DNA of 64,000 nucleotides. Source: Eubacterium sp. GTDB lineage: Bacteria > Bacillota > Clostridia > Lachnospirales > Lachnospiraceae. Each line of letters begins with the position of its first letter. The first letter of the stretch is position 1. Both the position numbers and the translations under genes were made by a program. This document shows positions 6,246-64,000 of the stretch, in pieces. The notes under the pieces were generated by a model, which worked only from the letters and a program-made list of their open reading frames with translations, did no database searches and was not told the origin of the DNA. The stretch spans positions 1 through 64,000 of the forward strand of contig JAILRB010000064.1 in assembly GCA_024698585.1 (NCBI GenBank), given 5' to 3'.

Positions 6246-6274
6246 GAAAAAGAAATGAAGTGGAGAGATGTATT

Positions 6275-6685
6275 ATGATGATTTCAACAAAAGGTCGTTA
6301 TGCATTAAGAATCATGATTGACCTGGCACAGAATGGAGAAGGAAAATATATTTCCCTAAAGGATATTGCAAACCGCCAGCAGATTTCCATGAAGTATTTG
6401 GAAATGATTGTTTCGATTTTACATAAAGGTGGAATGGTAAGTAGTCTTCGTGGAAAATCCGGTGGGTATAAGCTTTCCAAAGAACCGGGAGAATACACAT
6501 TGGGTTCCATTTTAAAATTAACTGAAGGAAGTCTGGCACCGGTATACTGTTTGGAAAGTGGGGCAGAGACCTGTGACAGAGCAGAAGAATGTGTTACCTT
6601 GCCGTTGTGGAAAAATCTGGATCAGATGATTGATGAGTATTTGGAACAACATACATTAAAAGACCTGGTAGAAGGAAAGTTATAA
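6275..6685 (+). CDS. Rrf2 family transcriptional regulator (IscR/CymR-like)
   Basis: MMISTKGRYALRIMIDLA...LRGKSGGYKLSK winged helix; ATG start preceded by GGAGAG. Confidence 0.92.
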   Translation: MMISTKGRYALRIMIDLAQNGEGKYISLKDIANRQQISMKYLEMIVSILHKGGMVSSLRGKSGGYKLSKEPGEYTLGSILKLTEGSLAPVYCLESGAETCDRAEECVTLPLWKNLDQMIDEYLEQHTLKDLVEGKL

Positions 6686-6699
6686 AAGCGTTAAGCTTA

Positions 6700-6740
6700 A
6701 AAAAAGAATGGTGAGATTTTTCTCACCATCCTTTTTATTT
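6700..6740. terminator. Bidirectional terminator between convergent genes
   Basis: aaaaagaATGGTGAGAtttTTCTCACCATccttttt. Confidence 0.75.
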
Positions 6741-7526
6741 AAACATATGTCCACCGATTTTAAGTCGACATCCTGCTACGTATCTTGAGAAGAATAAGAA
6801 GTTCGCCATACTTGTTTCTGAACTTCCAAGTACTACGGAGTTTTCACCGTTTAATGTTTCTTTTGCTGCATTAATACAAGCCTGAGGAATATTTCCGTTA
6901 TCGTACTTGTTTAATGCTCTGCTTAAAAATCCTGTAGCGGCAGGAGTGAACTGACCACGCTGATAAATAACACCGGCTAAAGTGTTTGGGAAGGAACCGG
7001 ACTTAATTCGGTTCATAATTACAATCCCTACAGCTTTCTTTCCTGCATAAGATTCTGCACCAGCTTCACAGAAGATGATCGAAGACATCAGTCTGAGCTG
7101 AGTAGCATTATATCTGTTCTTAACCTTAACAGTAATCTTTGCGTACACATCACCGGTTTTCTTAGAAGTGACAGTAATTACTGTTTTACCTTTTTTTGTA
7201 GCTCTTACAATTCCTTTTTCATTTACTGTAGCAACAGCAGTCTTACTAGAAACAAAATCGTACTTTTTCATTTTCTTCTTAGATAATGATAAAACTTTTT
7301 TTAGTTTTAATGTCTTATTAACTTTTACTTTTTTTGTTACTTTTATAGTTTCTTTTTTAGCAACCTTTACAGTTTCCTGAACTGTAGTAGTTTCTTCTTC
7401 GATTGTAGCAGTAGTTACTTCCTGTGTTTCTTCTTCAGCAGCATTGACGGCTACCATACTTGAAGCACTAAGAACAAAAACTAATAAAAATAATGTTAAA
7501 ATATGACGTTTCAAAACAACCTCCAA
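6735..7526 (-). CDS. Secreted SleB-like cell wall hydrolase with N-terminal Big_2-like domain
   Basis: Signal peptide; lysine-rich Big_2-like segment; MSSIIFCEAGAESYAGKKAVGIVIMNRIKSGSFPNT...GVIYQRGQFTP. Confidence 0.88.
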   Translation of the reverse strand: MEVVLKRHILTLFLLVFVLSASSMVAVNAAEEETQEVTTATIEEETTTVQETVKVAKKETIKVTKKVKVNKTLKLKKVLSLSKKKMKKYDFVSSKTAVATVNEKGIVRATKKGKTVITVTSKKTGDVYAKITVKVKNRYNATQLRLMSSIIFCEAGAESYAGKKAVGIVIMNRIKSGSFPNTLAGVIYQRGQFTPAATGFLSRALNKYDNGNIPQACINAAKETLNGENSVVLGSSETSMANFLFFSRYVAGCRLKIGGHMFK

Positions 7527-9520: not shown

Positions 9521-9850
9521 TAAGGTACACCTGGAAAGAGGAAAAAAAGTCAATGTACCTTACATATAGAAGAAAGAGAGTGGCTAGGGTACATCTAGTG
9601 GGGGGCAAAAAAGTGATGGTACCTTATAAATGGAAGAATGATTAGGGTTAGGGTACACTTCAAAAAAGTTGAAAGGGTTAGCTGTACCTTGCAACGGAGA
9701 AAAATGAAGGAAGTAAGGTACAGCCCCAAAAAAAAGACCATACGACCGTACCTTACAAGTTAAATAAATGAAAAAGATAGGGTATGGCAATCAAAAATTG
9801 TTCTAACAAGTGTACCTTATGATAAAGAAATATGAAAAAGTTAAGGTAAC
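9521..9850. repeat. Regularly spaced array of 11 alternating-orientation 9-bp motifs (TAAGGTACA / TGTACCTTA), about 64-bp period
   Basis: Forward motifs start at 9521, 9585, 9649, 9714, 9778, 9842 (spacing 64,64,65,64,64); inverted motifs at 9554, 9618, 9683, 9747, 9811. Intervening sequences are about 24 and 22 nt, A/purine-rich, not conserved. Confidence 0.85.
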
Positions 9851-9948
9851 TGAGGAACGATAAAACGAATTTTATTTTTTGGAAACCTTTACGAAACGCG
9901 AGGAAAGACCGAAAAACGATTCAAAGTGAACACTTCTCACAAAAAGAG

Positions 9949-9967
9949 TTAAACGTTTTACTATAAT
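9949..9967 (+). promoter_or_regulatory. Candidate promoter -10 (TATAAT, 9962-9967) with overlapping LacI-like palindrome TTAAACGTTTTA
   Basis: agTTAAACGTTTTACTATAATG upstream of the GH55 gene; -35 is weak. Confidence 0.45.
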
Positions 9968-9989: not shown

Positions 9990-10005
9990 ATAAAAACACT
10001 TTTAT
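9990..10005. promoter_or_regulatory. Shared 16-mer ATAAAAACACTTTTAT (copy 1)
   Basis: Exact match to 60979-60994 and, reverse complemented, 42659-42674. Confidence 0.65.
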
Positions 10006-10076
10006 CATATGGAAAAATAAAAGTCGAAAATTTATAATGTTAGAGGAGAGAAAACATATGAAGGAGTAGACGGAAC

Positions 10077-13000
10077 ATGAAAAGACAACACAGGTTTATG
10101 AAGAAAGTGGTCGCATGCATGCTGGCCATTTGTTTATGTATGCCGGCACAGTTTACCACAAAAACTTCTGCGGCAGACATTAACAACATTGGCGTGCCGA
10201 ATTACAGGGTTCAAAAAAATGCATCAAAGACAGATGCGTTTGTTTATGCCTATAATGTATTGGATTACGGCGCGGACAACACAGGAAACAATGACAATAC
10301 GCAAATCTTCCAGAAGCTGATTGATCACACTGCGAATCTGGGAGGTGGAATCATTTATGTACCATCAGGAAGATACAAGATTGCCGGTTCTTTGAGAATC
10401 AAGAAAGGTGTCACCTTGCGCGGAGACTGGACGAAGCCAAAAGCAGGACAGAGTCTTACCGGTGGAACCATTCTGATGGCTTATGTGGGACGAGGAAAAG
10501 GTGAAAGCAGCACACCGTTTATGGAGACGGAAGTAGAAGTCGGCGTGATGGATATGACAATCTGGTATCCGGAACAGGATCCGAACAATATCGTGGAATA
10601 CTCTCCGACGATTCGTTTAGGATGTAATGGATACTTTGGAAATGAATATGCCAATATTAAAAACGTGACCTTGGTGAATTCCTATATTGGAATCTGGTGG
10701 AATCAGAGCAATGGCGGAGCATCACCGGTTATCAATGGGGTGTATGGTACCCCGCTGAAAAAAGGAATTGAGATTGACTGTATCGCGGATGTAGGACGAA
10801 TCGATAACGTGACATTCTCACCGGATTTCTGGTCAGGCTCCGGACTTCCCAATGCACCGGAAAAAGGAAGTTCCTTTGAACGCTGGATCTATGACAATGG
10901 AATCGGAATTGTCATGCGTCGAAATGACTGGTCCTATGCCTGCTATATTAATATAGAAGGTTATCACGTGGGATATAACACCAAAGTCTCTTCAGAGGGC
11001 AATGGTGCAACACCAAACGGACATCATTATAAGTTCAAACTGAAAAACTGTAACATCGGAATTTTATTTGAGACGTCCAATTACGTGGGTATTTTGTTTC
11101 ATGATGTTACCGCTTACAATTGTGAAACGGGATTTCAGGTCAATGGTGGTACCACAGATACCATCCAGTTTGCAAAGAGTACATTCACTTGTAGTAAGTA
11201 TGCAATCAATGTGGACAAGGCTTCCACCACAAAGGTACTCTTGTACGATTCCACAGTGGAAAAGGGTGTGGTAAATATTGATGGTGGAACACTGATGTCA
11301 ACAGCGACTGCCTATAACAATAAGGCTCCACAGATTGTCATTGGAAGTCTGGGACGTGTTTCTCTGGCAGGAAATACCTTTAAGAACGAAAGAGAAATCC
11401 GAAACAATTCCATTTATCAGTCAGATTTGGAAAATGGTTCCGTGAATGTGAAGCCGGTTCCGGATTTTGATGATACAAAGTCTCAGTATCAGAGCCATAT
11501 GCCGAAAAAACTGGATTTATATGTGGTTACAAACAGCCCATACAATGCAGATAATAACCGAAATCATGGGGGAGGAAATGATTGTACCAATGCCATCCAG
11601 AGCGCATTAAATGACGCTTCCGCAGGTGGCGGGGGAATCGTATTCCTTCCGGCAGGACATTATAGAATTAATGGTTCTTTATTGATTCCAGGCAATGTTG
11701 AGTTACGTGGTGCCACGGACTTAAGTACCGTACCTCACGGATCCGGAGCAATTCTGGAAGCGTATGGCTTTAAGGGCAATGCGAATGGAACTCCACTGAT
11801 TCGCATTTCAGAAAGTGCCGGAGTGCGAGGAATCATTGTAAACTATCCGGAGCAGACCTACCAGCTGGATGGGAACGGAGAATTCCATCCGGTGGATTAC
11901 CCGGCAACCATGCAGGGAATGGGAAGTGACATTTACGTGATCAATACAGGAATCCGTGCGGCAACTTACGGCCTGGATTTAGATACTTATCGTTGTGACA
12001 ACCATTATGTGGAATTTTTGGCAGGACATGTAAATAAGGTTTGTGTCAAAGTGGGAAATGGTTCTTCCAACGGTACTATTAACAATTTAATGTTTAATAC
12101 AATCATTTATGGTTGTGGCCAGGAATATCCGAAGTTCGGAGGATTCCCGAACAGCCCGAACACTCCGGCAGGGGTAAGTAACGGACCGGTTTACGACCAG
12201 CAGTTACGGGAATTGGAATTCCTGATTGTGGGAGATACAACAAATCAGCATTTATATAACTGTTTCCCATACGGAGCTTATATTGGAACAAAACTGATTA
12301 GTGAAGGAAACGGTGGACCACAGAATCTTTCTTCCATGGGATTGGGAATTGACGGTTCCAGAAAATCATTGTATTTTGGTTCAGGTCTGACAGGTGAAAT
12401 GAATTTCGTGGACAATCAGATTGTGTCCTTAAACAATGATCAGCCGATTACCAGATATTTTGAGACGGAAGGAAATTCTAATTTTACCGCAAACTTTTAC
12501 AATACCGATTTATGGGGATATCCGGAAAAAGCAGTTGTGATGAATGCCGGAAGCGGTACATTAAATCTTTATACCGCTAATTTCCAGCAGCGTGGTTATA
12601 ATGGAGCCTTGACAGTTGGCGAGGGCAGTAAGGTGAATTTAATCACATCAAGCTTTAATACCAATAATGCAACCTTCTCATCCGGAAGCAGTCGGGTATC
12701 GGTAATTAATACGGTGGCAGATTACACCCAGAATGAAGCAAATGCTTTTGCTGAAAATAAGGCAAATTTCTCTACCGCAGTGGTTGTGGACGGAAACAGC
12801 CAGGCAATGGCGAAGATTAACCAAACCGGATGGGTGGCATCTTCTAATGTAAATAACTATATGGCTGCCCAGTCCTTGGATGGGGATTTAAACTCCCAGT
12901 GGAATTCCAGCTGGCAGGCTCCGGGACAGTGGTATCAGGTGGATATGGGAAATGTGCAGCAGTTTGACACCATTGTGACCACATTAGGAAATACTGCCGA

Positions 13001-14264
13001 TTCTCCGGGAGACTATAAAGTATTGCTTTCTAATGACGGAAGTAATTGGAGACAGGTGGCAGCAGGACAAAATCGGAATATTTATGAAGTGGGGCCACAG
13101 CAGGCCAGATATGTTCGAATCGAACAAAACAGCAGTGCAGGAAAATTCTGGGCAATCTATGAATTTTATGTTCTAAACAGTGAAAGTTATGATGTGGGGG
13201 ACGGGGAAATCATTGAGCCGGAACCAACTACAGAAGAACAGACTACCGAAGAAGTAATTACAGAAAAAGAAACGAATACAGAAGCAGAGACGACTACAGC
13301 TTCACAGCCGGGACAGGAAACAATTTATGGAGTGGAAAATGCTACGGTTACTGTGGCAGAGCTGTTTAACACTGCAGCAGCGTACCATGGAAAGAATGTT
13401 GGAAACCTTCATTTAGAAGGAGCATCCTTTACTATTTCTTCCGTGAACGGTGGAACAAAGGGAGGCATTGCGACCCTTCTGGTACATTATGCATCCAATG
13501 AGGATAATTCTCATCTGGGTCTGTCGGTAAACAATGGTGCGCAGACTACATTAAGCTTTTCATCCACTGGTGGATGGGAAGCGTATACAGGAACGATTTC
13601 CACAGAAATCAATCTGGCTCCGGGAAATGGAAATACCTTACAGTTTACAGGTGGTTCCGGTGGCGTTAATGTGGATTACATTGCCATTTGTCTGCAAAAT
13701 TCCGAAGAAGAGGAAACGACGAATCAGAATGGAACCATTAGCAATCAGTTAAAGATTGAAGGATATCAGATTAGCTACACATTGAAAGGACTTCGTGTTA
13801 TTTCATCTGTGGATGAGGAAATCGATGGAAAGAGAGTGGTAAAGGCAGGAAATATTTACGGCTTGTTTTCTCAGGGAGCTACCGCAGAGGATTTGGTTCT
13901 TGGAACATCACATCCATTTGTGGCTGACTTTGAGTACACCAGTGCTGGAATTCTTTCACCAATGCCGGGAATGGAAGAGGACACTACTTATCATTCCATG
14001 ACAATGATTAAAAACGGAACCAGTGTTAAGGCATACACCGCAGAATACGGTGTCAGAGCATATGCTATTTTAGAGGATGGTTCTGTTCGATATAGCAAAG
14101 TGAAGACTTATTCCATTTATAAAGTAGCTGAATATCTTTATGAAAAGAATCTTATGAGTAACAGTGCAGGTCATGAGTATTTGTATCGGGATATTTTATT
14201 GAAAGTGAACCCGAATTACAAGGAAATTGACTACGATTGGGGCAATGAGATTGTAAAATTTTGA
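10077..14264 (+). CDS. Secreted GH55-like beta-1,3-glucanase: two pectate-lyase-superfamily beta-helix domains, F5/8 type C domain, CBM6/35-like domain, unknown C-terminal domain
   Basis: Signal peptide; VLDYGADNTGNNDNTQIFQKLID...GGGIIYVPSGRYKIAGSL and a second NDCTNAIQSALNDASAGGGGIVFLPAGHYRINGSL; F5/8C AAQSLDGDLNSQWNSSW...ARYVRIEQ; TTEEQTTEE linker; CBM-like YGVENATVTV...GGVNVDYIAICLQ. Confidence 0.82.
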   Translation: MKRQHRFMKKVVACMLAICLCMPAQFTTKTSAADINNIGVPNYRVQKNASKTDAFVYAYNVLDYGADNTGNNDNTQIFQKLIDHTANLGGGIIYVPSGRYKIAGSLRIKKGVTLRGDWTKPKAGQSLTGGTILMAYVGRGKGESSTPFMETEVEVGVMDMTIWYPEQDPNNIVEYSPTIRLGCNGYFGNEYANIKNVTLVNSYIGIWWNQSNGGASPVINGVYGTPLKKGIEIDCIADVGRIDNVTFSPDFWSGSGLPNAPEKGSSFERWIYDNGIGIVMRRNDWSYACYINIEGYHVGYNTKVSSEGNGATPNGHHYKFKLKNCNIGILFETSNYVGILFHDVTAYNCETGFQVNGGTTDTIQFAKSTFTCSKYAINVDKASTTKVLLYDSTVEKGVVNIDGGTLMSTATAYNNKAPQIVIGSLGRVSLAGNTFKNEREIRNNSIYQSDLENGSVNVKPVPDFDDTKSQYQSHMPKKLDLYVVTNSPYNADNNRNHGGGNDCTNAIQSALNDASAGGGGIVFLPAGHYRINGSLLIPGNVELRGATDLSTVPHGSGAILEAYGFKGNANGTPLIRISESAGVRGIIVNYPEQTYQLDGNGEFHPVDYPATMQGMGSDIYVINTGIRAATYGLDLDTYRCDNHYVEFLAGHVNKVCVKVGNGSSNGTINNLMFNTIIYGCGQEYPKFGGFPNSPNTPAGVSNGPVYDQQLRELEFLIVGDTTNQHLYNCFPYGAYIGTKLISEGNGGPQNLSSMGLGIDGSRKSLYFGSGLTGEMNFVDNQIVSLNNDQPITRYFETEGNSNFTANFYNTDLWGYPEKAVVMNAGSGTLNLYTANFQQRGYNGALTVGEGSKVNLITSSFNTNNATFSSGSSRVSVINTVADYTQNEANAFAENKANFSTAVVVDGNSQAMAKINQTGWVASSNVNNYMAAQSLDGDLNSQWNSSWQAPGQWYQVDMGNVQQFDTIVTTLGNTADSPGDYKVLLSNDGSNWRQVAAGQNRNIYEVGPQQARYVRIEQNSSAGKFWAIYEFYVLNSESYDVGDGEIIEPEPTTEEQTTEEVITEKETNTEAETTTASQPGQETIYGVENATVTVAELFNTAAAYHGKNVGNLHLEGASFTISSVNGGTKGGIATLLVHYASNEDNSHLGLSVNNGAQTTLSFSSTGGWEAYTGTISTEINLAPGNGNTLQFTGGSGGVNVDYIAICLQNSEEEETTNQNGTISNQLKIEGYQISYTLKGLRVISSVDEEIDGKRVVKAGNIYGLFSQGATAEDLVLGTSHPFVADFEYTSAGILSPMPGMEEDTTYHSMTMIKNGTSVKAYTAEYGVRAYAILEDGSVRYSKVKTYSIYKVAEYLYEKNLMSNSAGHEYLYRDILLKVNPNYKEIDYDWGNEIVKF

Positions 14265-14427: not shown

Positions 14428-15006
14428 ATGGCAAATTCAAATATTACAAAAAGAGCATTGGCTCAGAGTTTGAAAACCCTTGGAGCAAAGAAGTTATTTG
14501 ATAAAATTACTGTTGCTGATATTACCGATGATTGTGGTGTGAATCGTCAGACGTTTTATTATCATTTTAATGATAAGTATGAATTGCTTGCTTGGATTTA
14601 TACCCAGGAAATGTTTATTCCGTTGACGGAAGATCTTAACTTTGAAAACTGGCCGGATAAGACATTGGAATTACTGGAATATATGAAGTCTCAGAGAAAA
14701 TTTATCACAAATACCATTAAATCATCCAATAACTTTTTTGCAGATTATTTGGAAAAAGTGCTGGTAGAGTTGTTTGAAAAGGCAATTGATGAACTTGACA
14801 TTTATGATAGTGTCAATGAACATACCAGAGGGGTCTATGCCAGATTCTTTTCTTATGGCATTACAGGCGTTATTGTTGATTGGGCAAAGGAAGGGATGAA
14901 AGAAGACGAGAAAGAACTTTCCGAACGTATAGAGGCTATTGTTAATACATCGGAACGTATGGGACATGAGTTATATCTTCTTCATCACAAGAAAGACGGA
15001 AAATAG
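14428..15006 (+). CDS. TetR/AcrR family transcriptional regulator
   Basis: KITVADITDDCGVNRQTFYYHFNDKYELLAWIY helix-turn-helix. Confidence 0.92.
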   Translation: MANSNITKRALAQSLKTLGAKKLFDKITVADITDDCGVNRQTFYYHFNDKYELLAWIYTQEMFIPLTEDLNFENWPDKTLELLEYMKSQRKFITNTIKSSNNFFADYLEKVLVELFEKAIDELDIYDSVNEHTRGVYARFFSYGITGVIVDWAKEGMKEDEKELSERIEAIVNTSERMGHELYLLHHKKDGK

Positions 15007-21589: not shown

Positions 21590-21650
21590 ACAGGACTTAT
21601 TCGTGCATAAAAATATTTTTATGCAGAAAAAGTCCTTTTTTTTATGTGAT
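21590..21650 (+). terminator. Terminator after secB-like gene
   Basis: AGGACTTattcGTGCATAAAAATATTTTTATGCagaaaAAGTCCTTTTTTTT. Confidence 0.8.
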
Positions 21651-42658: not shown

Positions 42659-42674
42659 ATAAAAGTGTTTTTAT
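42659..42674. promoter_or_regulatory. Shared 16-mer (inverted copy, ATAAAAGTGTTTTTAT)
   Basis: Exact reverse complement of 9990-10005 and 60979-60994. Confidence 0.5.
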
Positions 42675-42952: not shown

Positions 42953-44860
42953 ATGAGAAAGATTACGAAGAAAATTGTATCAGTCGTAACCAGTTGCGCT
43001 ATGGTTGTTGCTTTAGGAGCAGCATTTCCACAGTTTAGCGTAAAAAATGTAAGTGCAGCAAATGCATCTTCCACATTGATTTGGAGTGATGAATTCAATG
43101 GGAGTTCATTAGACACATCAAAGTGGAACTATGAAACAGGCACCGGTTCCGGTGGATGGGGAAACAATGAAAGACAGTACTACACAAACAGAACGGACAA
43201 TGTGTACGTATCTGGCGGTTCTTTACATATTAAGGCAAAAAGAGAAAATTACGGTGGAATGAACTACACATCCGGAAGAATTAAAACAGCCGGAAAGTTC
43301 TCATTTAAATATGGATATGTGGAAGCAAGATTAGCACTTCCAGCAAGCTCAGGAATCTGGCCTGCATTCTGGATGCTCGGTGAAAACATTGGCAGCGTTG
43401 GCTGGCCTGCATGTGGTGAAATCGATATCATGGAAGCAATCAATGCAGAATATAAGACATACGCTACATGTCATTGGAATGCAAACGGACATGCAGAATA
43501 TGGACGTTCTACAGGAAACTTCGATATTACTCAGTTCCATACATACGCATTATCATGGGATAAGGATTATATCAGAATGTATGTAGACGGTGGAGAAGTT
43601 TATGTGATGCAGATTACAAACGGCACCGGAGATACAGATGAATTCCATAAGCCATTCTTCCTGTTATTAAACGTAGCAGTTGGTGGTAACTGGCCGGGAT
43701 TCAACATTGACGACGGAGCACTTCCAAAGGAAATGAAGGTTGACTACATCCGTGTATATCAGGATGGTGGTACATCTCAGAACAACAATAACAATAATAA
43801 CAACAATAATAACAACAACAATAACAACTCAGGATCAAATACATCCACACCATCTTCAGGAATGGGAATGAACTATGCAAGTGGTTCTTCTGCAACAGCA
43901 TTTGTAAATGATTCTAAGTGGGCTGACATTCACTATACAGTTAATGGTGGAGCACAGCAGAATGTACGTATGACTCAGAGCGGAAGTAAGGCTACTTATA
44001 CAATTAATGGATTAAGCAGTGGAGCAACCGTAAAATACTGGTTCACATACAGTGATAATTCTGGATTTGTTCGTGATACACAGAGCTATACATACACACA
44101 CAACGCAGGAAGCTCAAGTAACTCCGGATCAAACAATTCAGGTTCAAATAACTCAGGATCAACAAACACAGCATCTGGTGATGTATATATTTATCAGGAT
44201 TCAAACTACGGTGGACGTTCCGCTTCTTTAGGCGTAGGAAATTACAACCTTGCATCTCTTCAGGCAAAGGGATTCAAGAACGATGATCTTTCATCTATCA
44301 AGGTTCCTTGGGGATATAAAGTAATCATGTACGCTGATGATAACTACAGCGGATCTACAAAGACATTGTATGCAGATTCTTCTTATGTAGGAAATGACTG
44401 GAATGACAAAGTATCTTCTATCAAGGTTCAGAGAGCACAGTACAAGATTAAAAACCGTCACAGCGGACTTGTTCTTGATGTTAGCGGTGGAAGCAAAGAC
44501 AATGGAGCAAATATTCAGCAGTGGTCTGACAACGGATCTAATGCTCAGAAATTTGAAGTACGTTTTAATGCATCTGATTCCACGTACGTTTTAGTAAATG
44601 TTGGAAGTGGAAAAGCAGTTGATATGGGCGGATGGTCTAAAGACAACGGCGGAAACGCTCTTCAGTGGGATAACAACAATACAGATAACCAGAGATGGTT
44701 CATTACTCCGGTTGATAACGGATATTCATTCTTAATTAACAAATACAGCAATAAGGGACTTGAAGTTGGTGGATGGTCTACATCAGCTGGTGGAAATGTT
44801 CAGCAGTGGGATTACAAGGCACAGGCAAATCAGCAGTGGCAGTTTATCAGAGTAAACTAA
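42953..44860 (+). CDS. Secreted GH16 beta-1,3-glucanase (laminarinase-like) - CBM56-like - beta/gamma-crystallin-like - CBM13 (ricin B)
   Basis: WSDEFNGSSLDTSKWNYETGTGSGGWGNNERQYYT, catalytic GEIDIMEAI (ExDxxE); poly-Asn linker; WADIHYTVNGGAQQNVRMTQ; GDVYIYQDSNYGGRSASLGVGNYN; QxW repeats in C-terminus. Confidence 0.93.
   Translation: MRKITKKIVSVVTSCAMVVALGAAFPQFSVKNVSAANASSTLIWSDEFNGSSLDTSKWNYETGTGSGGWGNNERQYYTNRTDNVYVSGGSLHIKAKRENYGGMNYTSGRIKTAGKFSFKYGYVEARLALPASSGIWPAFWMLGENIGSVGWPACGEIDIMEAINAEYKTYATCHWNANGHAEYGRSTGNFDITQFHTYALSWDKDYIRMYVDGGEVYVMQITNGTGDTDEFHKPFFLLLNVAVGGNWPGFNIDDGALPKEMKVDYIRVYQDGGTSQNNNNNNNNNNNNNNNNSGSNTSTPSSGMGMNYASGSSATAFVNDSKWADIHYTVNGGAQQNVRMTQSGSKATYTINGLSSGATVKYWFTYSDNSGFVRDTQSYTYTHNAGSSSNSGSNNSGSNNSGSTNTASGDVYIYQDSNYGGRSASLGVGNYNLASLQAKGFKNDDLSSIKVPWGYKVIMYADDNYSGSTKTLYADSSYVGNDWNDKVSSIKVQRAQYKIKNRHSGLVLDVSGGSKDNGANIQQWSDNGSNAQKFEVRFNASDSTYVLVNVGSGKAVDMGGWSKDNGGNALQWDNNNTDNQRWFITPVDNGYSFLINKYSNKGLEVGGWSTSAGGNVQQWDYKAQANQQWQFIRVN
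43777..43830 (+). repeat. Trinucleotide (AAC/AAT)n tract encoding poly-Asn linker
   Basis: caGAACAACAATAACAATAATAACAACAATAATAACAACAACAATAACAAC; 16 consecutive Asn codons. Confidence 0.9.
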
Positions 44861-44975
44861 AAAATTAAGGAAGTTTGGAAAGCATGGGGGAACCATTCCT
44901 CTGTGCTTTCTTGATGATAAGGGGAGCAAAGCGTAACTACAGGCAAAAAATTTAGACAGAATGGAGAGTAGTAAA

Positions 44976-47018
44976 ATGATCAGAAAAAAACTGATGGCCG
45001 TGTTACTATCGGTAGCAATGATTGCTACGATGGCACCGGCAACAAGCAAGACACAGGAAGTGAAAGCAGCTTCCGCAGGCACACGAGTAGTAGGATATTT
45101 TCCATCTTACAGAACTTACGCAATCAACTCGGTTGATTTTTCAGCAATGACTCATTGTATGTTAGCATTCATGACATACTCCAATGGTACATTGACTTCC
45201 GGATTTTCCGGCGGAGATGTACAGACCATTGTAAACAAGTGTCATGCCAGCGGAACCAAGGCAATGATTGCCATTGGCGGATGGAACGGATTTGATTCCA
45301 GCGATAATCCTTTTGGAACAGCACAGAAGAGAACCAACTTTGTAAATCAGGTAATGAACTATGTAAACACCTATAACTTAGATGGCGTTGACATTGATAT
45401 TGAATTGACCGATGCAAACATCTGGAACAACTACAATGCATTGGTTTCAGAACTTTCCGGTAGATTAAAATCTCAGGGAAAACTTCTTACCATGGCAGTT
45501 TCAACATGGTTTACAGGTTCTATCAGCAATTCAACTTACCAGTATTTTGACTTCTTAAACCTGATGTCTTATGACTACAATCAGAGTGGTACCGGAGAAG
45601 TAGCACCTTGGTCACAGATTTATGACATGGTTTCCTATTACGGAAGCAGAGGTGTAAGCAACGACAAGCTTGTCATCGGTGTTCCTTTCTATGGATACGG
45701 TGCAGGCGGCGCAGCAAAAACTTTTGCTGAAATGGTTGCAATGAATCCGGCTTATGCAGACATGGATTACGCAGCAGGTGTTTATTACAACGGAATGAGC
45801 ACCATCCGAAAGAAAGCAGAGTACAGCAAGTCTTATGGCGGAACTATGATTTGGGAAGTGGCTCAGGACTCTTTCGGAACCTATTCTTTATTGAATGTGA
45901 TTAAGCAGGTAATGCAGACCGGAAATAATAACTCCGGAAACAACAATTCAGGAAATAACAATTCCGGCAACAACAACTCCGGAAACAATAACTCCGGAAA
46001 TACATCCACACCATCCTCAGGAATGGGAATCAATTATGTGAATGCTTCTTCCGCAACAGCATATGTGAATGACTCAAAGTGGACAGATATTCACTACACA
46101 GTTAATGGTGGAGCACAGCAGAATGTACGTATGAATCAGGACGGAAACAAAGCAGTTTATACCATCAATGGATTAAGCAGTGGCGCAACCGTAAAATACT
46201 GGTTTACATATTGTAATACTTCCGGATATGTTCAGGACACGCAGAGTTACACCTATACACATACCGGTTCAGGAAACAGTAATAGCGGAAACAACAATGG
46301 AAGCAACACCGGTTCTAACACAAACACAGGCTCCGGTGATGTGTATATTTATCAGGATGCAAACTACGGCGGACGTTCCGCATCTTTAGGAGTAGGAAAC
46401 TACAATCTTGCGTCTCTTCAGGCAAAAGGCTTCAAGAATGACGACCTTTCATCCATCAAGGTTCCTTGGGGATATAAGGTAATCATGTATGCAGATGATA
46501 ACTTCAGTGGATCCACAAAGGTGGTAAATGGAGATACCGCTTATGTAGGAAATGATTGGAACGACAAGGTTTCATCCATCAAGGTTCAGAGAGCACAGTA
46601 TAAGATTGTCAACAGAAATAGTGGACTTTGTCTTGATGTTAGCGGTGGAAGTAAAGACAACGGCGCAAATATCCAGCAGTGGACAGACAACGGAACTGTA
46701 GCTCAGAAATGGGAAGTACGTTTCAATGCAGGAGATTCAACGTACGTTTTAGTAAACGTAGGTAGCGGTAAGGCAATGGATATGGATGCATGGTCTAAAG
46801 ATAATGGAGGCAATGCAATCCAGTGGGACAACAATAATACTGATAACCAGAGATGGTTTATTACTTCTGTTGATAACGGCTATACATTCTTGATTAACAA
46901 GAACAGTAATAAAGCGTTAGATGTAGAAGCTTGGTCAACTGCAGCAGGTGGCAATGTACATCAGTGGGATTACGGCGCACAGGCTAATCAGCAGTGGAAA
47001 TTTGTTCAGGTAAATTAG
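44976..47018 (+). CDS. Secreted GH18 chitinase-like - CBM56-like - beta/gamma-crystallin-like - CBM13
   Basis: VVGYFPSYRTYAINSVDFSAMTHCMLAF, catalytic DGVDIDIE; NNSG-repeat linker; C-terminal modules nearly identical to the preceding GH16; start at RBS-linked ATG. Confidence 0.93.
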   Translation: MIRKKLMAVLLSVAMIATMAPATSKTQEVKAASAGTRVVGYFPSYRTYAINSVDFSAMTHCMLAFMTYSNGTLTSGFSGGDVQTIVNKCHASGTKAMIAIGGWNGFDSSDNPFGTAQKRTNFVNQVMNYVNTYNLDGVDIDIELTDANIWNNYNALVSELSGRLKSQGKLLTMAVSTWFTGSISNSTYQYFDFLNLMSYDYNQSGTGEVAPWSQIYDMVSYYGSRGVSNDKLVIGVPFYGYGAGGAAKTFAEMVAMNPAYADMDYAAGVYYNGMSTIRKKAEYSKSYGGTMIWEVAQDSFGTYSLLNVIKQVMQTGNNNSGNNNSGNNNSGNNNSGNNNSGNTSTPSSGMGINYVNASSATAYVNDSKWTDIHYTVNGGAQQNVRMNQDGNKAVYTINGLSSGATVKYWFTYCNTSGYVQDTQSYTYTHTGSGNSNSGNNNGSNTGSNTNTGSGDVYIYQDANYGGRSASLGVGNYNLASLQAKGFKNDDLSSIKVPWGYKVIMYADDNFSGSTKVVNGDTAYVGNDWNDKVSSIKVQRAQYKIVNRNSGLCLDVSGGSKDNGANIQQWTDNGTVAQKWEVRFNAGDSTYVLVNVGSGKAMDMDAWSKDNGGNAIQWDNNNTDNQRWFITSVDNGYTFLINKNSNKALDVEAWSTAAGGNVHQWDYGAQANQQWKFVQVN

Positions 47019-55786: not shown

Positions 55787-56014
55787 ATAGTAAAATATAA
55801 ATAAAAGCCATTATGTATCTGAAAACTCTCTTTTGCGTGATACAATTTGTTAAAAAATTGTTCACAAAAAAGGGGGTTTTTTGGTTGTAATTGCTAAAAA
55901 AATGGATACAAAATCGGTACATTGTACATAGGGATATTATGGCATTTATGTTATAATCAAATTTGTGGGTTTTACCGCAGGGAAATTGAAGGGAAAATTG
56001 AAAAGGAGATTATT

Positions 56015-59000
56015 ATGAGACGAGTGAAAAAAGGGTTAGCTGTTATGCTGACGCTTGTTTTAGTGACGGCTATGATGCCGTTTTCACAGGCGAATGTCAG
56101 TGCGGCGAAAAAAATGAAACTCTCAAAGAAGAAAATCACTTTAACCGTTGGGAGCAAGAAGAAAGTTAAAGTGAAAAATGCACCAAAGGGTGTTAAGGTC
56201 AAATGGAAATCTAAGAACAAGAAAATTGCCAAGGTTTCAAAGAAAGGTGTGATTACTGCAGTAAAAGCAGGTAAGACTACCGTAACGGCAAAAGTTGGAA
56301 CAAAGAAACTGAAATGCAAAATAGTTGTAAAAGCAAAAACAGTGGTTGTTCCACAGACTACAAAGAAACAGGCAACTCCTGTAGCAACACCAACCACAAA
56401 AGCTACAGAAGTAACACAAACACAGAATACAACAAGTGCACAGGCTACTACAGTAGCACAGTCAACAACTAAGGCTCAGAGTACCACAGCACAGCAGACT
56501 ACAACCGCACAGTCAACGACAAAAGCACAGAGTACCACAGCAGCACAGTCTACAACCCAGGCACAGGCCGGTGCGGAAGACATTTATGCCAATGCTGCAT
56601 TTTTAGGAGATGGTGCTCAGGGCGGTGCATTAACTGACGTTTATAAGGCAGTCGTTATTTCCGGAGAAGATGTTACACCGAATAACATTCAGAATTTCCA
56701 GGGGATTACAGCCATTCATGTAATTATGAGTGATGCCTTAATAGGAGATGTTCTTGTCAATGGAACTGCTAGTACCGGAAAAGTAGAGGGTGCAGGTTTA
56801 TTTATAAATATTGATGATTTAACAAAAACGGATAATGAAGTAATCGTGAAAAATCCTGACGGGACTCAGAAAGCCGTTATCCGAATTTATAATAAAAATG
56901 GGGATGGAAGTGGAACTGGTGAGAACCCGGTTACACAGAATCAGACCACAACAAACACACAGCCGACAACAAAGTCTACAGAAACTACGACTGCAGCTTC
57001 TACCAAATTAGGAAATGTGGAAGGATTATCCTATGCAGGAAACGAGAATCTGCCACATTATTTTGCTTGGGCAAAAGCAGCAGATGTTGATGGATATCAT
57101 GTATTTGTTGATGGAGAAAAGGTTACAGATGTAACAGAAGGATGCGTGAACTTAGATGCAGGATTATTTGCAAAGGGCGGAACTTTTGTAATCGGAATTC
57201 AGGCATACAAGGGAAATCTTGTTTCTGATATTGCAACCATTGAACATACTGTTGCAGCACAGGTGACAACCAAAGAAGTCACTACTGCGCAGACAACAAC
57301 AAAGGAACAGACAACAAAAGAAACAACTACAGCGCAGGCTACAACCAAAGAAGTCACTACCGCGCAGCAGACAACCAAGGAAGTGACCACAGCGCAGCAG
57401 ACAACTAAGGAAGTAACTACAGCACAGCAGACAACCAAGGAAGTGACAACTCAGGCCGGTGGTGAAGACATTTATGCGAACGCACAGTTCCTCGGAGACG
57501 GAGCACAGGACGGTGCATTGTCGAATACTTTTAAAGTCGTTGTAATCAAGGGAGAAGTTACACCAAATAATGTTCAGAATTTCCAGGGAATTGTTGCAAT
57601 TCATAATATCTTCGGAGATGCAGACATTAAGAATGTGACAGTAAACGGACAGCCTTCTACCGGAAAAGTTGAAGGCGCAGGCTTGTTCATTAACATTAAT
57701 GACTTAACAGAAAAAGATAATACCGTTATTGTATATAACAATGCAGGGGCAGAAAAAGCAGTTCTTCGTGTTTACAATGCAAATGGAACAGGAAGTGTTG
57801 CAGAACCAACTACTGCAAGTCAGCAGCAGACGACACAGTCACAGGTAACAACAAAGGAACAGACTACAAAGGAAACAACATCAGTACAGACTACAACAAA
57901 GGAACAGACGACTTCCGGAAATGAAACATTACCGGCAGTAGCAGGTTTAACCTATTCAGGAAATACAAGTCTTCCATACTACTTTGCTTGGGCAGCAAGC
58001 ACAGGTGTAGATGGATATCATGTATATGTCAATAGCACAAAAGCAATGGATGTATCAGGTTCGGCAGCGAATTTAGACGCTTCATTCTTCCCTACAAACG
58101 GAACTTACAAGATTGGCGTTCAGGCATTTAAGGGAATAGCAGTTTCTCCGATTACTACCATTGATTATGTTGTGACAAATGCTTCTGAAAATCCAACTCA
58201 GGGACAGCAGACTACAGCACAGACACAGGCACCAACTCAGGCACAGCCTACAACCCAGGCACAGCCTACAACTCAGGCACAGCCTACAACTCAGGCCGGA
58301 GGAACAGATATTTATGCTAATGCACCATTCCTTGGAGATGGAGCTCAGGGTGGAGCGTTATCAAACACTTATAAAGTAGTTGTTACACAGGGTGATGTTA
58401 CCCCGAACAACATTCAGAACTTCCAGGGAATTGTTGCAATTCACAATATCTTTGGAGACGCAGACATTAAGAACGTGACAGTAAACGGTCAGGCATCAAC
58501 AGGAAAAGTAGAAGGTGCCGGATTGTTCATTAATATCAACGATTTAACAGAAAAAGATAATACCGTTATCGTATATAACAATGCAGGTTCAGTGAAGGCA
58601 ATCCTTCGTGTATATAATGCGAATGGAAATGGCGGCGTAGAACCAACGCAGGCACCTACGCAGGCACCTACACAGGCACCAACACAGCAGCCGACTCAGC
58701 AGCCAACACAGCAGCCGACTCAGACAACTGTGAATTTCACAACAGATTCATCCATCAGAGAACCATTTGGAATTGATGTAACAAATCCGGAACCGGGAAT
58801 CATTCGTGTGGTTTGGGGTGCAGATGAACCAAACTGCTTCAATGTTTATGTTGATGGCGTACGTAAAAAGACAAAAGTTGCAGCATCAGTACAGAATATT
58901 CCGGTACAGACAGAAGGAAATCATGTGGTTTCTATTGCACATGTAAATCCAACAAACAGTACGGAATCAAATCGTAAGGATGTAACCATTTATGTTACTG

Positions 59001-60208
59001 GGACAGCACCGGAAGAAACAACAGAAATTGCAGAAGAAGATAAGCCGGTAATTGATGAAAGCATTCAGAAAGAGAATGGTAAAGTTGTTCTTCAGTTAAA
59101 CAATAAAACAGGTGGACAGTACAGAGATGATCAGATTTATTGGATTGTTGTAGGAAGAAATCCTCAGACTCATAAGATTGCATATGTTGATGCAAACGGA
59201 AATCTGATTGAAGCACATCTTTCTGACAATGACGGAAACATCGGAAACAGAAAGTACTCTCAGAAGATTGTACATACATTGGCTGATAACAAGGCGGTTC
59301 AGCTTCCAGCGATTGAATCAGGAAGAATGTACTTAAGCTATGGAGAACCGGTTTATATTACCTTCAACGGAGAAGAAGGTGCAATTGGATACGCAGGACC
59401 GGATACAAATAATACCGGGGATGCAAACTACCATACATTATTTGAATATATTGAATTTACAACAGAAGCGATTAATGGAGGAATCACTTTCCACGGAAAT
59501 ACAACCCGTGTAGACTTCTTCAGCTTCCCAATGATTACAAGATTAACAGACGAATATGGCGGATATGACAGATGTGTTGGTGATGTGGGAACCAGAGCAG
59601 AAATCTTTGAAGCATTTAGAAACGAAGTATCAGCTCCATTCCAGACATTGATTACCAACGAACGAATCATGTGTCCGGCAAAATTAACCTTCGGTGAAGG
59701 AAAGCAGTACGGAAACTACTATGATGATTACATCAACCGTTTCTGGAATTATTATGCAAGTCACGATTTAGTAATTGATTCCGAAGCAGGTCACTTTACC
59801 GGAAGAGTCTCCGAAAACAGAATCATCTTCAATGGAAAATATTACATTGATAAGCCGACTACACAGGATGTTCTGGAAGGAAGAGGCGCATTTAACAATT
59901 TAAGTCCTGAAACAAGAAGTTTTGCAATCGGTAGTGATGAAAGAATCGATCGTGAACGATGCGAATTAGCCATTGAGGCACAGCTTTGTGCAGCTTTCAC
60001 AAGAGGTATTGTAATGGATCCAAGTAAATGGTATAAGCCATCAACCTTCTATCCAAGCAATGAAATCTTTAACGAATATGCAGCATTCTTCCACAGACAT
60101 GCAGTAGCTAGCAGAGCTTATGGATTCTGCTATGACGACGTTGCAGATCAGAGTACTTTAGTAGAATGTGGAAACGCAGCTAGATGGACCATTGATTTGA
60201 AGTGGTAA
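56015..60208 (+). CDS. Secreted multi-module GH64-like beta-1,3-glucanase with Big_2-like N-terminus, three about 110-aa repeats and FN3-like modules
   Basis: Start at RBS AAAAGGAG-ATG; K-rich Big_2; three DIYANAxFLGDGAQ...LRVYN repeats; Thr-rich linkers; C-terminal ESGRMYLSYGEPVYITFN...GYAGPDTNNTGDANYHTLFEYIEFTTEAINGGITFHGNTTRVDFFSFPMITRL typical of GH64. Confidence 0.88.
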   Translation: MRRVKKGLAVMLTLVLVTAMMPFSQANVSAAKKMKLSKKKITLTVGSKKKVKVKNAPKGVKVKWKSKNKKIAKVSKKGVITAVKAGKTTVTAKVGTKKLKCKIVVKAKTVVVPQTTKKQATPVATPTTKATEVTQTQNTTSAQATTVAQSTTKAQSTTAQQTTTAQSTTKAQSTTAAQSTTQAQAGAEDIYANAAFLGDGAQGGALTDVYKAVVISGEDVTPNNIQNFQGITAIHVIMSDALIGDVLVNGTASTGKVEGAGLFINIDDLTKTDNEVIVKNPDGTQKAVIRIYNKNGDGSGTGENPVTQNQTTTNTQPTTKSTETTTAASTKLGNVEGLSYAGNENLPHYFAWAKAADVDGYHVFVDGEKVTDVTEGCVNLDAGLFAKGGTFVIGIQAYKGNLVSDIATIEHTVAAQVTTKEVTTAQTTTKEQTTKETTTAQATTKEVTTAQQTTKEVTTAQQTTKEVTTAQQTTKEVTTQAGGEDIYANAQFLGDGAQDGALSNTFKVVVIKGEVTPNNVQNFQGIVAIHNIFGDADIKNVTVNGQPSTGKVEGAGLFININDLTEKDNTVIVYNNAGAEKAVLRVYNANGTGSVAEPTTASQQQTTQSQVTTKEQTTKETTSVQTTTKEQTTSGNETLPAVAGLTYSGNTSLPYYFAWAASTGVDGYHVYVNSTKAMDVSGSAANLDASFFPTNGTYKIGVQAFKGIAVSPITTIDYVVTNASENPTQGQQTTAQTQAPTQAQPTTQAQPTTQAQPTTQAGGTDIYANAPFLGDGAQGGALSNTYKVVVTQGDVTPNNIQNFQGIVAIHNIFGDADIKNVTVNGQASTGKVEGAGLFININDLTEKDNTVIVYNNAGSVKAILRVYNANGNGGVEPTQAPTQAPTQAPTQQPTQQPTQQPTQTTVNFTTDSSIREPFGIDVTNPEPGIIRVVWGADEPNCFNVYVDGVRKKTKVAASVQNIPVQTEGNHVVSIAHVNPTNSTESNRKDVTIYVTGTAPEETTEIAEEDKPVIDESIQKENGKVVLQLNNKTGGQYRDDQIYWIVVGRNPQTHKIAYVDANGNLIEAHLSDNDGNIGNRKYSQKIVHTLADNKAVQLPAIESGRMYLSYGEPVYITFNGEEGAIGYAGPDTNNTGDANYHTLFEYIEFTTEAINGGITFHGNTTRVDFFSFPMITRLTDEYGGYDRCVGDVGTRAEIFEAFRNEVSAPFQTLITNERIMCPAKLTFGEGKQYGNYYDDYINRFWNYYASHDLVIDSEAGHFTGRVSENRIIFNGKYYIDKPTTQDVLEGRGAFNNLSPETRSFAIGSDERIDRERCELAIEAQLCAAFTRGIVMDPSKWYKPSTFYPSNEIFNEYAAFFHRHAVASRAYGFCYDDVADQSTLVECGNAARWTIDLKW

Positions 60209-60978: not shown

Positions 60979-60994
60979 ATAAAAACACTTTTAT
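60979..60994. promoter_or_regulatory. Shared 16-mer ATAAAAACACTTTTAT (copy upstream of GH81)
   Basis: Exact match to 9990-10005; AAAACGTTCC (61002-) and AAAACGTTTC (61116-) lie just downstream. Confidence 0.65.
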
Positions 60995-61320: not shown

Positions 61321-64000
61321 ATGAGAAAAGGTAAGTTATTTACCAATGCAAAGAAAACGCTGAGCGCGTTTTTAGCAACTGCTATGGTTGTCGGTTTAAT
61401 GCCGGCACAGTCATTCCTTGTAAAAGCGGATGACACACCTTATGTGGTTTCGACTGGTAGAACGGTTTATGCCAGTTCCAGTGTTGGAAACAGTGATCCG
61501 GCATATGTAGCGGATGGAACACTGGGAACTCGTTGGGAAAGCGAGTGGGGGAATCAAGAGGAATGGATTTATGTGGACTTAGGAAAAGTAACACAGATTA
61601 CAGGGGTTAAACTTTACTGGGAAGGTGCATATGCGAAGAAGTATCGAATCCAGACATCCAATGATGAGGAAAACTGGACAACAGTAGATACGAATAATAA
61701 TTGTACCGGAGGAAATGAAGAACGGAACGTAACAACCAGTGCAAGATATGTCAGATTATATATGACAGAAAAGCAGTTACCAGCATATGGATATTCCCTT
61801 TATGAATTTGAAATATACGGATTAAATGGAATTACAAAGCCACCGGTTAATTATGGAACAAACATTGCTGAAGGAAAAAATGTTTCTGCATCTTCCTTAA
61901 GAGATATTTGGTGGATGTATGACAGCAATGGCGTGATTGACCAGTCAAGCGTTTTAGCGCAGAACGCAGTGGATGGAAATAAAAATACATACTGGACTTC
62001 CGGAGAAGCAGACAATCAGTGGTTGACTGTGGATTTGGGAAGAAACTATACCATTGGACGAGTTATCATTGATTGGGCGTCTGATGCAGGAAAGATGTAT
62101 GATATTCAGGTTTCTACAAACGGAAATGATTGGACAACATTGTATCGTGAAACAAAAGGATCAGGATTCCATGTTGCAAATGTTGAACTATATGCCAATG
62201 CCCGTTATGTAAGAATGTATGGATTTACAAGAGTTGAAAGTGGTAGCGGATTTAGCATATATGAAATGAAGGTTTACGAATATAAGAACGGTGACCCACA
62301 CGTTACCCATAATATTCCGGAACTTCCACAGTCTAGAGTCGTATCAGATGGTAAGGGAACCTATCTTGCAAACTCTATGTACAATGAAAAAGCAAAATTA
62401 CCAATTTATAAGACTGATGACATCAATACACCTGTTGCAAGTAATGACTGGTGGCAGTCTATGTTAATCAATAAATTTGGAAATACACTTTGCATGTTAC
62501 CATTTAAGGCAAGATATTCCACAAAGGGTCTTGGAATTTTAACAGCAACAGAAGGATGGCTTCCTGATATGGGACCAACGGATGTGAATGTATCTGTTAA
62601 TTCTGAAACAGAAAATGACTTTTACATTCAGCCGGAAAACTTTGATACAACAACCGCTTGTGATAAAGTATCCGGATATAGTGATTTTGCAGTATCAGCT
62701 CAGCTTTGTGATGATAATCACGTGGCAATGACAAGTACTTTTGTAAAAGGTTCGCCATACATCTTCACAGAATATGGTGATACACAGACAATCACTTTAG
62801 TTTCAGCAAATATTTCTTCTATCTTTGATGGCAATGGAAATGAAATCTTAACAACAAACTTATCTTCATTGACAGCAGATCACATCGGAATCGAAGTAAC
62901 TGACAATGATAATAAGGACAGAACAAAGACAGCTAAGAGCTATTACTGTTTAACAGTTCCTGCAAACACAGTATTCAAGAAAATCGGAAAGAACATCAGA
63001 ATTACTTTCCCTGGAAACAATGGATATATGTCTATTGGTACTATGAACAGCAAATCTCAGATTGATACATTCTTCCATCATGGATATGCATTTGTTACAA
63101 ACACAGCAGTAACTTATGATTACAATGATGGTAATGCAAAAATCACATCAAATTACACTGCTACAACAACATTAAAGAGAGCAGGATTTGATAACAACAC
63201 ATTCATGTGCATGTTACCTCATCAGTGGAAGAACTCTAATGATGATAACAATGCATTCACTACATACACATCTGTACGTGGTGACTTAAAGACAGTAAAT
63301 TCTAACTCCTTTGCAACAGTATCTGATTTTGCAGGACTTCTTCCAACCTTTGCACTTCCTAGAAATGCAGAATTCGATGGAGAAGCAGTTCTCGGATACT
63401 TATCACAGTTAGAAGATGCTACTAAGAACTTAAACCCAGCAGGCGATGCTTATTGGGAAGGAAAGAACCTTCATCCATTAGGAATGGGCGTACTGATGGC
63501 TGATCAGTTAGGAGAAACAGAATTAAGAGATGTATTCTTAAAGAGAATTAAGAAGATTCTTGTAAACTGGTTCACATATGATGGACAGAATGACATCAGC
63601 TATTTCATTTACAACCAGAACTGGGGAACATTGTTCTATGAACAGAGTGAATTCGGTGCGAATGCAGCAATCTGTGACCACCACTTCACATATGGTTACT
63701 TCATGTTTGCAGCAACTGTTCTGGCAACTTATGATGAACAGTTCTACAACGATTACAAGGGAATGATTGAACTGATGATTCGTGACTATGCGAACCCATC
63801 AGACAATGATAGTGAATATTGCAGATTCAGGGCTTATGATATGTACGAAGGACATTCATGGGCAGGTGGATATGCAGACAATGATTCCGGAAATAACCAG
63901 GAATCAGCCAGTGAATCCTTATTCAGCTGGGTAAGTATGTACCTTTGGGGCGTTCTTACAGAAAACGATACTTATCGTGATGCCGGAGTTTTTGGATTTA
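61321..64000 (+). CDS. Secreted GH81 endo-beta-1,3-glucanase with two N-terminal F5/8 type C domains (truncated by window end; not in ORF track)
   Basis: Signal peptide MRKGKLFTNAKKTLSAFLATAMVVGLMPAQSFLVKA; two DGxxxTxW F5/8C modules; SNDWWQSMLINKFGNTLCMLPFKARYSTKGLGI, DHHFTYGYFMFAATVLA, YEGHSWAGGYADNDSGNNQESASESLFSW. Confidence 0.93.
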   Translation, partial: MRKGKLFTNAKKTLSAFLATAMVVGLMPAQSFLVKADDTPYVVSTGRTVYASSSVGNSDPAYVADGTLGTRWESEWGNQEEWIYVDLGKVTQITGVKLYWEGAYAKKYRIQTSNDEENWTTVDTNNNCTGGNEERNVTTSARYVRLYMTEKQLPAYGYSLYEFEIYGLNGITKPPVNYGTNIAEGKNVSASSLRDIWWMYDSNGVIDQSSVLAQNAVDGNKNTYWTSGEADNQWLTVDLGRNYTIGRVIIDWASDAGKMYDIQVSTNGNDWTTLYRETKGSGFHVANVELYANARYVRMYGFTRVESGSGFSIYEMKVYEYKNGDPHVTHNIPELPQSRVVSDGKGTYLANSMYNEKAKLPIYKTDDINTPVASNDWWQSMLINKFGNTLCMLPFKARYSTKGLGILTATEGWLPDMGPTDVNVSVNSETENDFYIQPENFDTTTACDKVSGYSDFAVSAQLCDDNHVAMTSTFVKGSPYIFTEYGDTQTITLVSANISSIFDGNGNEILTTNLSSLTADHIGIEVTDNDNKDRTKTAKSYYCLTVPANTVFKKIGKNIRITFPGNNGYMSIGTMNSKSQIDTFFHHGYAFVTNTAVTYDYNDGNAKITSNYTATTTLKRAGFDNNTFMCMLPHQWKNSNDDNNAFTTYTSVRGDLKTVNSNSFATVSDFAGLLPTFALPRNAEFDGEAVLGYLSQLEDATKNLNPAGDAYWEGKNLHPLGMGVLMADQLGETELRDVFLKRIKKILVNWFTYDGQNDISYFIYNQNWGTLFYEQSEFGANAAICDHHFTYGYFMFAATVLATYDEQFYNDYKGMIELMIRDYANPSDNDSEYCRFRAYDMYEGHSWAGGYADNDSGNNQESASESLFSWVSMYLWGVLTENDTYRDAGVFGF

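Follow-up and report, generated by a model that had tools for sequence, protein, structure and literature searches.

Control of beta-1,3-glucan degradation by a LacI-family protein has been described in Clostridium thermocellum, where the repressor GlyR3, encoded within the beta-1,3-glucanase operon celC-glyR3-licA, is released by laminaribiose (PMC5483248). A related case is Cphy2742 of Clostridium phytofermentans, a LacI/GalR regulator of pectin utilization that is associated with a cre-like palindrome before pectin genes (PMC5171806). The system analyzed here resembles GlyR3 in that a LacI-family regulator is encoded in a beta-1,3-glucanase locus and in the LacI-type operator control that we propose: the regulator gene has a GH161-type neighbor in 14/14 genomes and, in the genome from which our sequence derives (G000), is preceded by two GH16 genes. 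It differs in its site, the GlyR3 site TGAACGCGCGTACA being CcpA-like with a CG center, whereas here the arms are AT-only and the center is variable, and in its breadth, as few targets are reported for GlyR3 while here a single genome has about a dozen or more candidates, including chitinase, protease and uptake genes. With Cphy2742 it shares a LacI-type palindrome before polysaccharide-degrading genes in a plant-polysaccharide degrader of the Clostridiales, but there the palindrome is cre-like and the genes are those of pectin.

Two broader systems also bear comparison. CcpA and its cre sites, the global LacI-family regulon of Firmicutes, share the dyad geometry (WTGNAA-NCGN-TTNCAW as against ATAAAA-NYRN-TTTTAT) and likewise make up a multi-gene carbohydrate regulon; here, however, A stands for G at half-site position 3 and Asn for Arg at LacI position 22, and the regulon is one of secreted enzymes, found in only some members of a single genus. 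In Bacillus, DegU and ComA likewise bring numerous secreted degradative enzymes under common control, and ComA sites share the 6-4-6 layout, but these proteins are response regulators and recognize other sequences.

The repeated word and its genes in the window

We examined a window of 64,000 nucleotides, meaning the whole stretch of DNA that was analyzed. The 16-mer ATAAAAACACTTTTAT occurs in it exactly at 9990-10005 (+), 60979-60994 (+) and 42659-42674 (-), the very positions and strands reported in the initial annotation; in 60 dinucleotide shuffles of the window the expected number was 0. Arm-perfect copies of ATAAAA-N4-TTTTAT numbered five, against 0.07 expected from the same number of shuffles. 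In the draft of G000 (2.51 Mb, 65 contigs) we found four exact copies and three more at one mismatch, while the reversed word, used as a control, gave two matches at up to one mismatch. All four exact copies lie upstream of secreted-enzyme genes, namely GH55, GH16, GH81 and, about 175 nt from the copy at C10:11829, an S8 protease that carries a CBM6 domain. The link to beta-1,3-glucanase genes that had been claimed for the three window copies was borne out, with sites 71, 278 and 326 nt before the GH55, GH16 and GH81 starts.

The copy before GH55 (9990..10005, +), 71 nt from the start codon, is identical in three sister species (G006, G007 and G009), where it lies 68-71 nt from the start amid divergent flanks. 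A second arm-perfect site, ATAAAACGAATTTTAT (9860..9875, +), is found 130 bp upstream of the first; in G009 (L037) it reads ATAAAACGACTTTTAT at the same spacing as in the window, and in L038 and L039 it has one mismatch and lies 119-120 bp from the first. A putative -10 box, TATAAT (10033..10038, +), follows the first site by 27 nt and is kept in all three sister species. The gene itself (10077..14264, +) encodes a secreted GH55-type beta-1,3-glucanase with an F5/8 domain and is a putative target; its GH55 name is that of the initial annotation, the sole Pfam family matched being the pectate-lyase-like one, to which GH55 folds belong. A TetR gene that follows GH55 (14428-15006) and an Rrf2 gene (6260-6685) were considered as regulators and set aside, being without sites there and without a link to the regulon.

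The copy before GH16 (42659..42674, -) stands just past the stop codon of a Dabb-domain gene and ahead of that gene's terminator-like repeat, 278 nt from the GH16 start. Its distance of about 280 nt and its place before a terminator had raised a caveat, which is largely removed by exact copies in G006 (L051) and G009 (L053) at a similar 276-280 nt from the start. The predicted target (42953..44860, +) is, by Pfam, a secreted GH16 with CBM56 and ricin-type lectin domains. A secreted GH18 with CBM56 (44961..47018, +) begins 100 nt after it and may share its transcript.

The third copy (60979..60994, +) lies 326 nt before the GH81 start at 61321 and is exact in G006, G007 and G009, 309-327 nt from the start. 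Its putative target (61321..63999, +), a secreted GH81 with two F5/8 domains by Pfam, extends past the window. Directly upstream of GH81 is a gene for a secreted GH64 beta-1,3-glucanase of 1428 aa (55922..60208, +); a search of the window returned no matching operator upstream of it. This GH64 protein has threonine-rich linkers and an Ig-like start. Elsewhere in the window, a perfect palindrome, ATAAAAATATTTTTAT (21607-21622), sits within a terminator-like hairpin and is probably unrelated to the regulon.

The conserved unit and its putative targets across the genus

The whole-genome scan proposed in the initial annotation was run on G000 and 22 searchable relatives, which together form a genus set of 23 draft genomes, and failed to refute the proposal: the word was not at a background frequency unrelated to glycoside hydrolases. 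Exact 16-mers numbered 17, spread over 8/23 genomes, and exact reversed words numbered one; with up to one mismatch allowed, the genus set contained 68 sites, as against 26 for the reversed word and 12, none of them exact, for a dyad-preserving permutation of the same composition. The S8 protease copy is exact in G009 too. Across orthologs of GH55, GH81, GH16, the S8 protease, chitinase and the solute-binding protein, the site is kept while its flanks and center diverge. A sample of 119 other genera of the family showed no general excess of the motif, and a literature search did not find the motif. In another family, G029 carries two exact 16-mers as an inverted pair (C62:11906-11959), unrelated to secreted enzymes and possibly a terminator hairpin.

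The exact 16-mer itself was rejected as the recognition unit, as its four central bases vary among orthologous genes: secreted GH16 orthologs have ACTG, ATCG or CAT-type centers, and orthologs of the solute-binding protein encoded at the C13 locus have TCT, TAG or TAT. It is, as the initial annotation had described it, a dyad, even and 16 bp long, whose arms are kept among orthologs, with the 6-4-6 spacing fixed across the orthologous promoters of many genes. Because the arms are kept while the center changes in orthologous promoters, the conserved unit is, judged from sequence, ATAAAA-N4-TTTTAT. We gathered sites with the pattern ATAAAAANNNTTTTAT, in which the arms are selected and the center, except for one A, is not, so that the apparent invariance of the arms in the matrix reflects this selection. 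A pyrimidine-purine step occupies the center of 45/58 independent target sites and of 71/106 listed genus sites, versus 8/46 control-dyad sites; a central CG occurs in 4/58 target sites. LacI-family motifs are as a rule even palindromes of 16-22 bp, most of them with a central CG and a minority with other or degenerate centers (PMC4052901). The even 16-bp dyad of fixed spacing has the geometry of a LacI-family operator; of its center, the pyrimidine-purine preference speaks for such an operator and the scarcity of CG against it.

The position of the collected sites also favors an operator. Only 16 of 132 lie inside genes, compared with 16 of 28 for a control dyad (Fisher p ~1e-6), and 89 are upstream of genes that are signal-peptide-like by a simple hydrophobicity rule, compared with 6 for the control (p ~1e-5). 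Pfam assignments for 30 target proteins include GH16, GH81, GH18 (one with CBM5/12, one with GH5), GH5, a Glyco_hydro_cc catalytic core (GH128-like) and GH3; S8 subtilases with CBM6 or F5/8 domains, a solute-binding protein and CotH; and F5/8 and other carbohydrate-binding proteins, phosphoglucomutase (pgm) and glgC, the last two of which carry the operator in several species. Of the initial proposal, an operator for a common regulator of glucan utilization is supported, but the set reaches beyond glucan hydrolysis, with chitinases, S8 proteases, solute-binding proteins, GH3, pgm and glgC among its members. At the S8 protease of C10 (L062) the operator occupies a divergent spacer (6645-7018) that separates the protease from a conserved block of small-protein, response-regulator and kinase-like genes, an arrangement shared with G007 and G009; the site there is exact in two species and has a different center in G007. 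The OmpR-type response regulator beside the protease was among the regulators considered. We also looked for an autoregulated transcription factor among the direct targets and found none in about 130 sites.

A candidate LacI-family regulator

Regulator profiling over the 23 genomes covered the LacI family (PF00356, over cut-off). LacI-family genes were present in all 14 motif-bearing genomes, at 2-5 each, and in 0/9 of the others, and counts of motif versus reversed control were 186:83 in the LacI-positive genomes and 5:30 in the LacI-negative ones. The nine LacI-negative genomes are all small, at 1.1-1.7 Mb, and could form a single clade, in which case this co-occurrence would amount to one or a few evolutionary events, a pattern that other genes could match. 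In a tree of 45 LacI proteins only one ortholog group included all 14 motif-bearing genomes, the other groups being patchy.

By its membership of this group, the candidate regulator in G000 is a protein of 334 aa (C13:20236-21237), with a PF00356 LacI helix-turn-helix at residues 3-48 and a PF13377 periplasmic-binding-protein-like sensor at residues 166-328. Its score against the ccpA equivalog model TIGR01481 was 169.6 bits with a cut-off of 442, which by the NCBIfam cut-off excludes it as a CcpA ortholog. The recognition helix ISTVSN is nearly invariant in the group, TVSR being found in most paralogs; a second TVSN paralog occurs in G000, G006, G007 and G009. LacI residue 22 contacts the third base of the half-site. 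Here position 22 is Asn, not Arg, and the G of the CcpA site TGNAANCG is replaced by A in the operator, so that, given this contact, TVSN in place of TVSR fits A in place of G.

The candidate gene belongs to a block of 12 collinear genes that opens with ATAAAAATCTTTTTAT, a perfect site at C13:2954 lying 236 nt ahead of the first gene for a solute-binding protein. The block comprises solute-binding proteins, ABC permeases, two secreted GH16 genes and the LacI gene, followed by a 1059-aa protein whose best solved relatives are GH161 phosphorylases (PDB 9qqk); the LacI gene of G000 is thus flanked by the GH16 pair and by the GH161-type phosphorylase. In three sister species an arm-perfect site again precedes the first gene of the block. 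In G062, a member of another genus, a 57%-identical LacI has the same phosphorylase beside it and a perfect ATAAAAACGTTTTTAT 125 nt upstream; among the genus members no perfect site stands directly upstream of the LacI gene. G062 and G077 have the same recognition helix, yet the motif shows no genome-wide enrichment there. Among the ABC transporter genes of the C13 locus (L390, L328; G000:C13:2000-26000) there are also genes for a DUF5696 protein and for an NHL-repeat/Yip1 membrane protein.

The glgC promoter, in a gene that nearly all genus members have, served as a within-gene control. A perfect site covers the -35 region there, with TATAAT following exactly 17 nt later, in 7/12 readable LacI-positive genomes and in 0/8 LacI-negative genomes (p = 0.015), a position that suggests repression. 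At other promoters the distance from site to -10 box varies (17, 25-27 or 34-36 nt, or no -10 found), and the sites of GH81 and GH16 stand ~300 nt ahead of their start codons, so repression is put forward tentatively. Helical phasing was considered as proof of activation and found suggestive, but independent promoters were few and many promoters lacked a clear -10, and it was set aside.

The proposed regulon and alternative readings

Taken together, these observations lead us to consider it probable that the 16-mer is one version of an ATAAAA-N4-TTTTAT operator for a dimeric LacI/GalR regulator, most likely the protein encoded at C13:20236-21237, in a LacI-type regulon for the degradation of beta-1,3-glucan, probably that of fungal walls. 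What was observed are the sites with their conservation and target genes, their co-occurrence with one LacI ortholog and the place of its gene in the motif-headed locus; we infer the binding of the LacI protein to the sites, the repression and the effector, the last from gene context. Without substrate, the regulator would sit on its operators and repress secreted glucanase, chitinase and protease genes along with the uptake locus; upon entry of beta-1,3-gluco-oligosaccharides into the cell, it would be released and the gene set expressed. GH161 would convert the oligosaccharides to glucose-1-phosphate, which pgm and glgC would route to glycolysis or glycogen. Glucose-1-phosphate, the product of GH161, is the substrate of both phosphoglucomutase and GlgC, which may explain the presence of pgm and glgC in the regulon.

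An unlikely alternative is that the dyad is the operator of some other dimeric regulator with 6-4-6 sites, such as an exoenzyme activator of the NarL/ComA/DegU type, the LacI gene being a mere passenger of the glucan locus. The 6-4-6 layout of ComA sites would agree with this, as would a regulon that looks like a general exoenzyme set of the DegU kind and a site placed ahead of the -35 region at several promoters, that of GH55 included, as suits an activator. It does not predict, however, the central pyrimidine-purine preference, the way in which one LacI ortholog tracks the motif exactly, the site that heads the LacI block and the one beside the LacI gene in another genus, or the overlap with the -35 region at glgC. 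We find it improbable, too, that the sites belong to a mixed network in which more than one LacI paralog, for instance a local glucan regulator and a global CcpA-like one, binds similar sequences: the 2-5 LacI paralogs of each motif-bearing genome, a further LacI group with TVSN and the AAACGTTT palindromes near several sites would accord with such a network, but only a single group is common to the 14 motif-bearing genomes, the others being missing from several. Scarcely credible, and largely refuted already, is a dyad without a protein partner that arises from promoter or terminator composition or acts as a curvature element, for although the word is AT-rich and intergenic and the arm-perfect copy at 21607 is part of a terminator-like hairpin, composition-matched dyads and shuffles fail to give its counts, positions or targets, the 119 other genera sampled show no general excess, and the site persists while its flanks diverge.

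Returning to the LacI-type operator, we put forward tentatively a further possibility, that one LacI-type regulator, with a recognition helix respecified by Asn 22 and an AT-only operator of flexible center, runs an entire fungus-lysing program of glucanases, chitinases, subtilases, uptake and GH161. Its set would comprise GH55, GH81, GH16 and a GH128-like catalytic-core protein as glucanases, GH18 with CBM5/12 as chitinases, and cell-wall-directed subtilases, with uptake of oligosaccharides; glucanase, chitinase and protease would together make a mixture for opening the fungal wall, an ecological reading drawn from gene content. If true, these rumen Lachnospiraceae would feed on anaerobic fungi or yeast in a regulated way, and expression of the regulon could mark bacterial attack on rumen fungi. 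The analysis takes a three-copy word to a putative regulon, for which it names a candidate regulator and gives a 16-bp operator model and a target list, in uncultured or little-studied rumen bacteria. It also offers what may be a clean case of respecification in the LacI family, in which an operator restricted to some members of a single genus goes with one conserved substitution in the recognition helix.

Two further elements were noticed near the operators. The AAACGTTT palindromes, another LacI-like element, occur near many of them (window 9951-9958 and ~61118; L070, L090 and L086) and possibly belong to a second regulator. Between a nifU-like gene and GH55, [AG]GGTAC (9523, 9587, 9651 and 9716) and GTACC[CT] (9555, 9619, 9684, 9748 and 9812) form a ladder (9523-9818) that alternates between strands every 32-33 bp, or about three helical turns. 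The ladder drew no call from a tandem-repeat finder and no match in Rfam; it is absent from G006 and G007 and present in the sister species G009 (L037).
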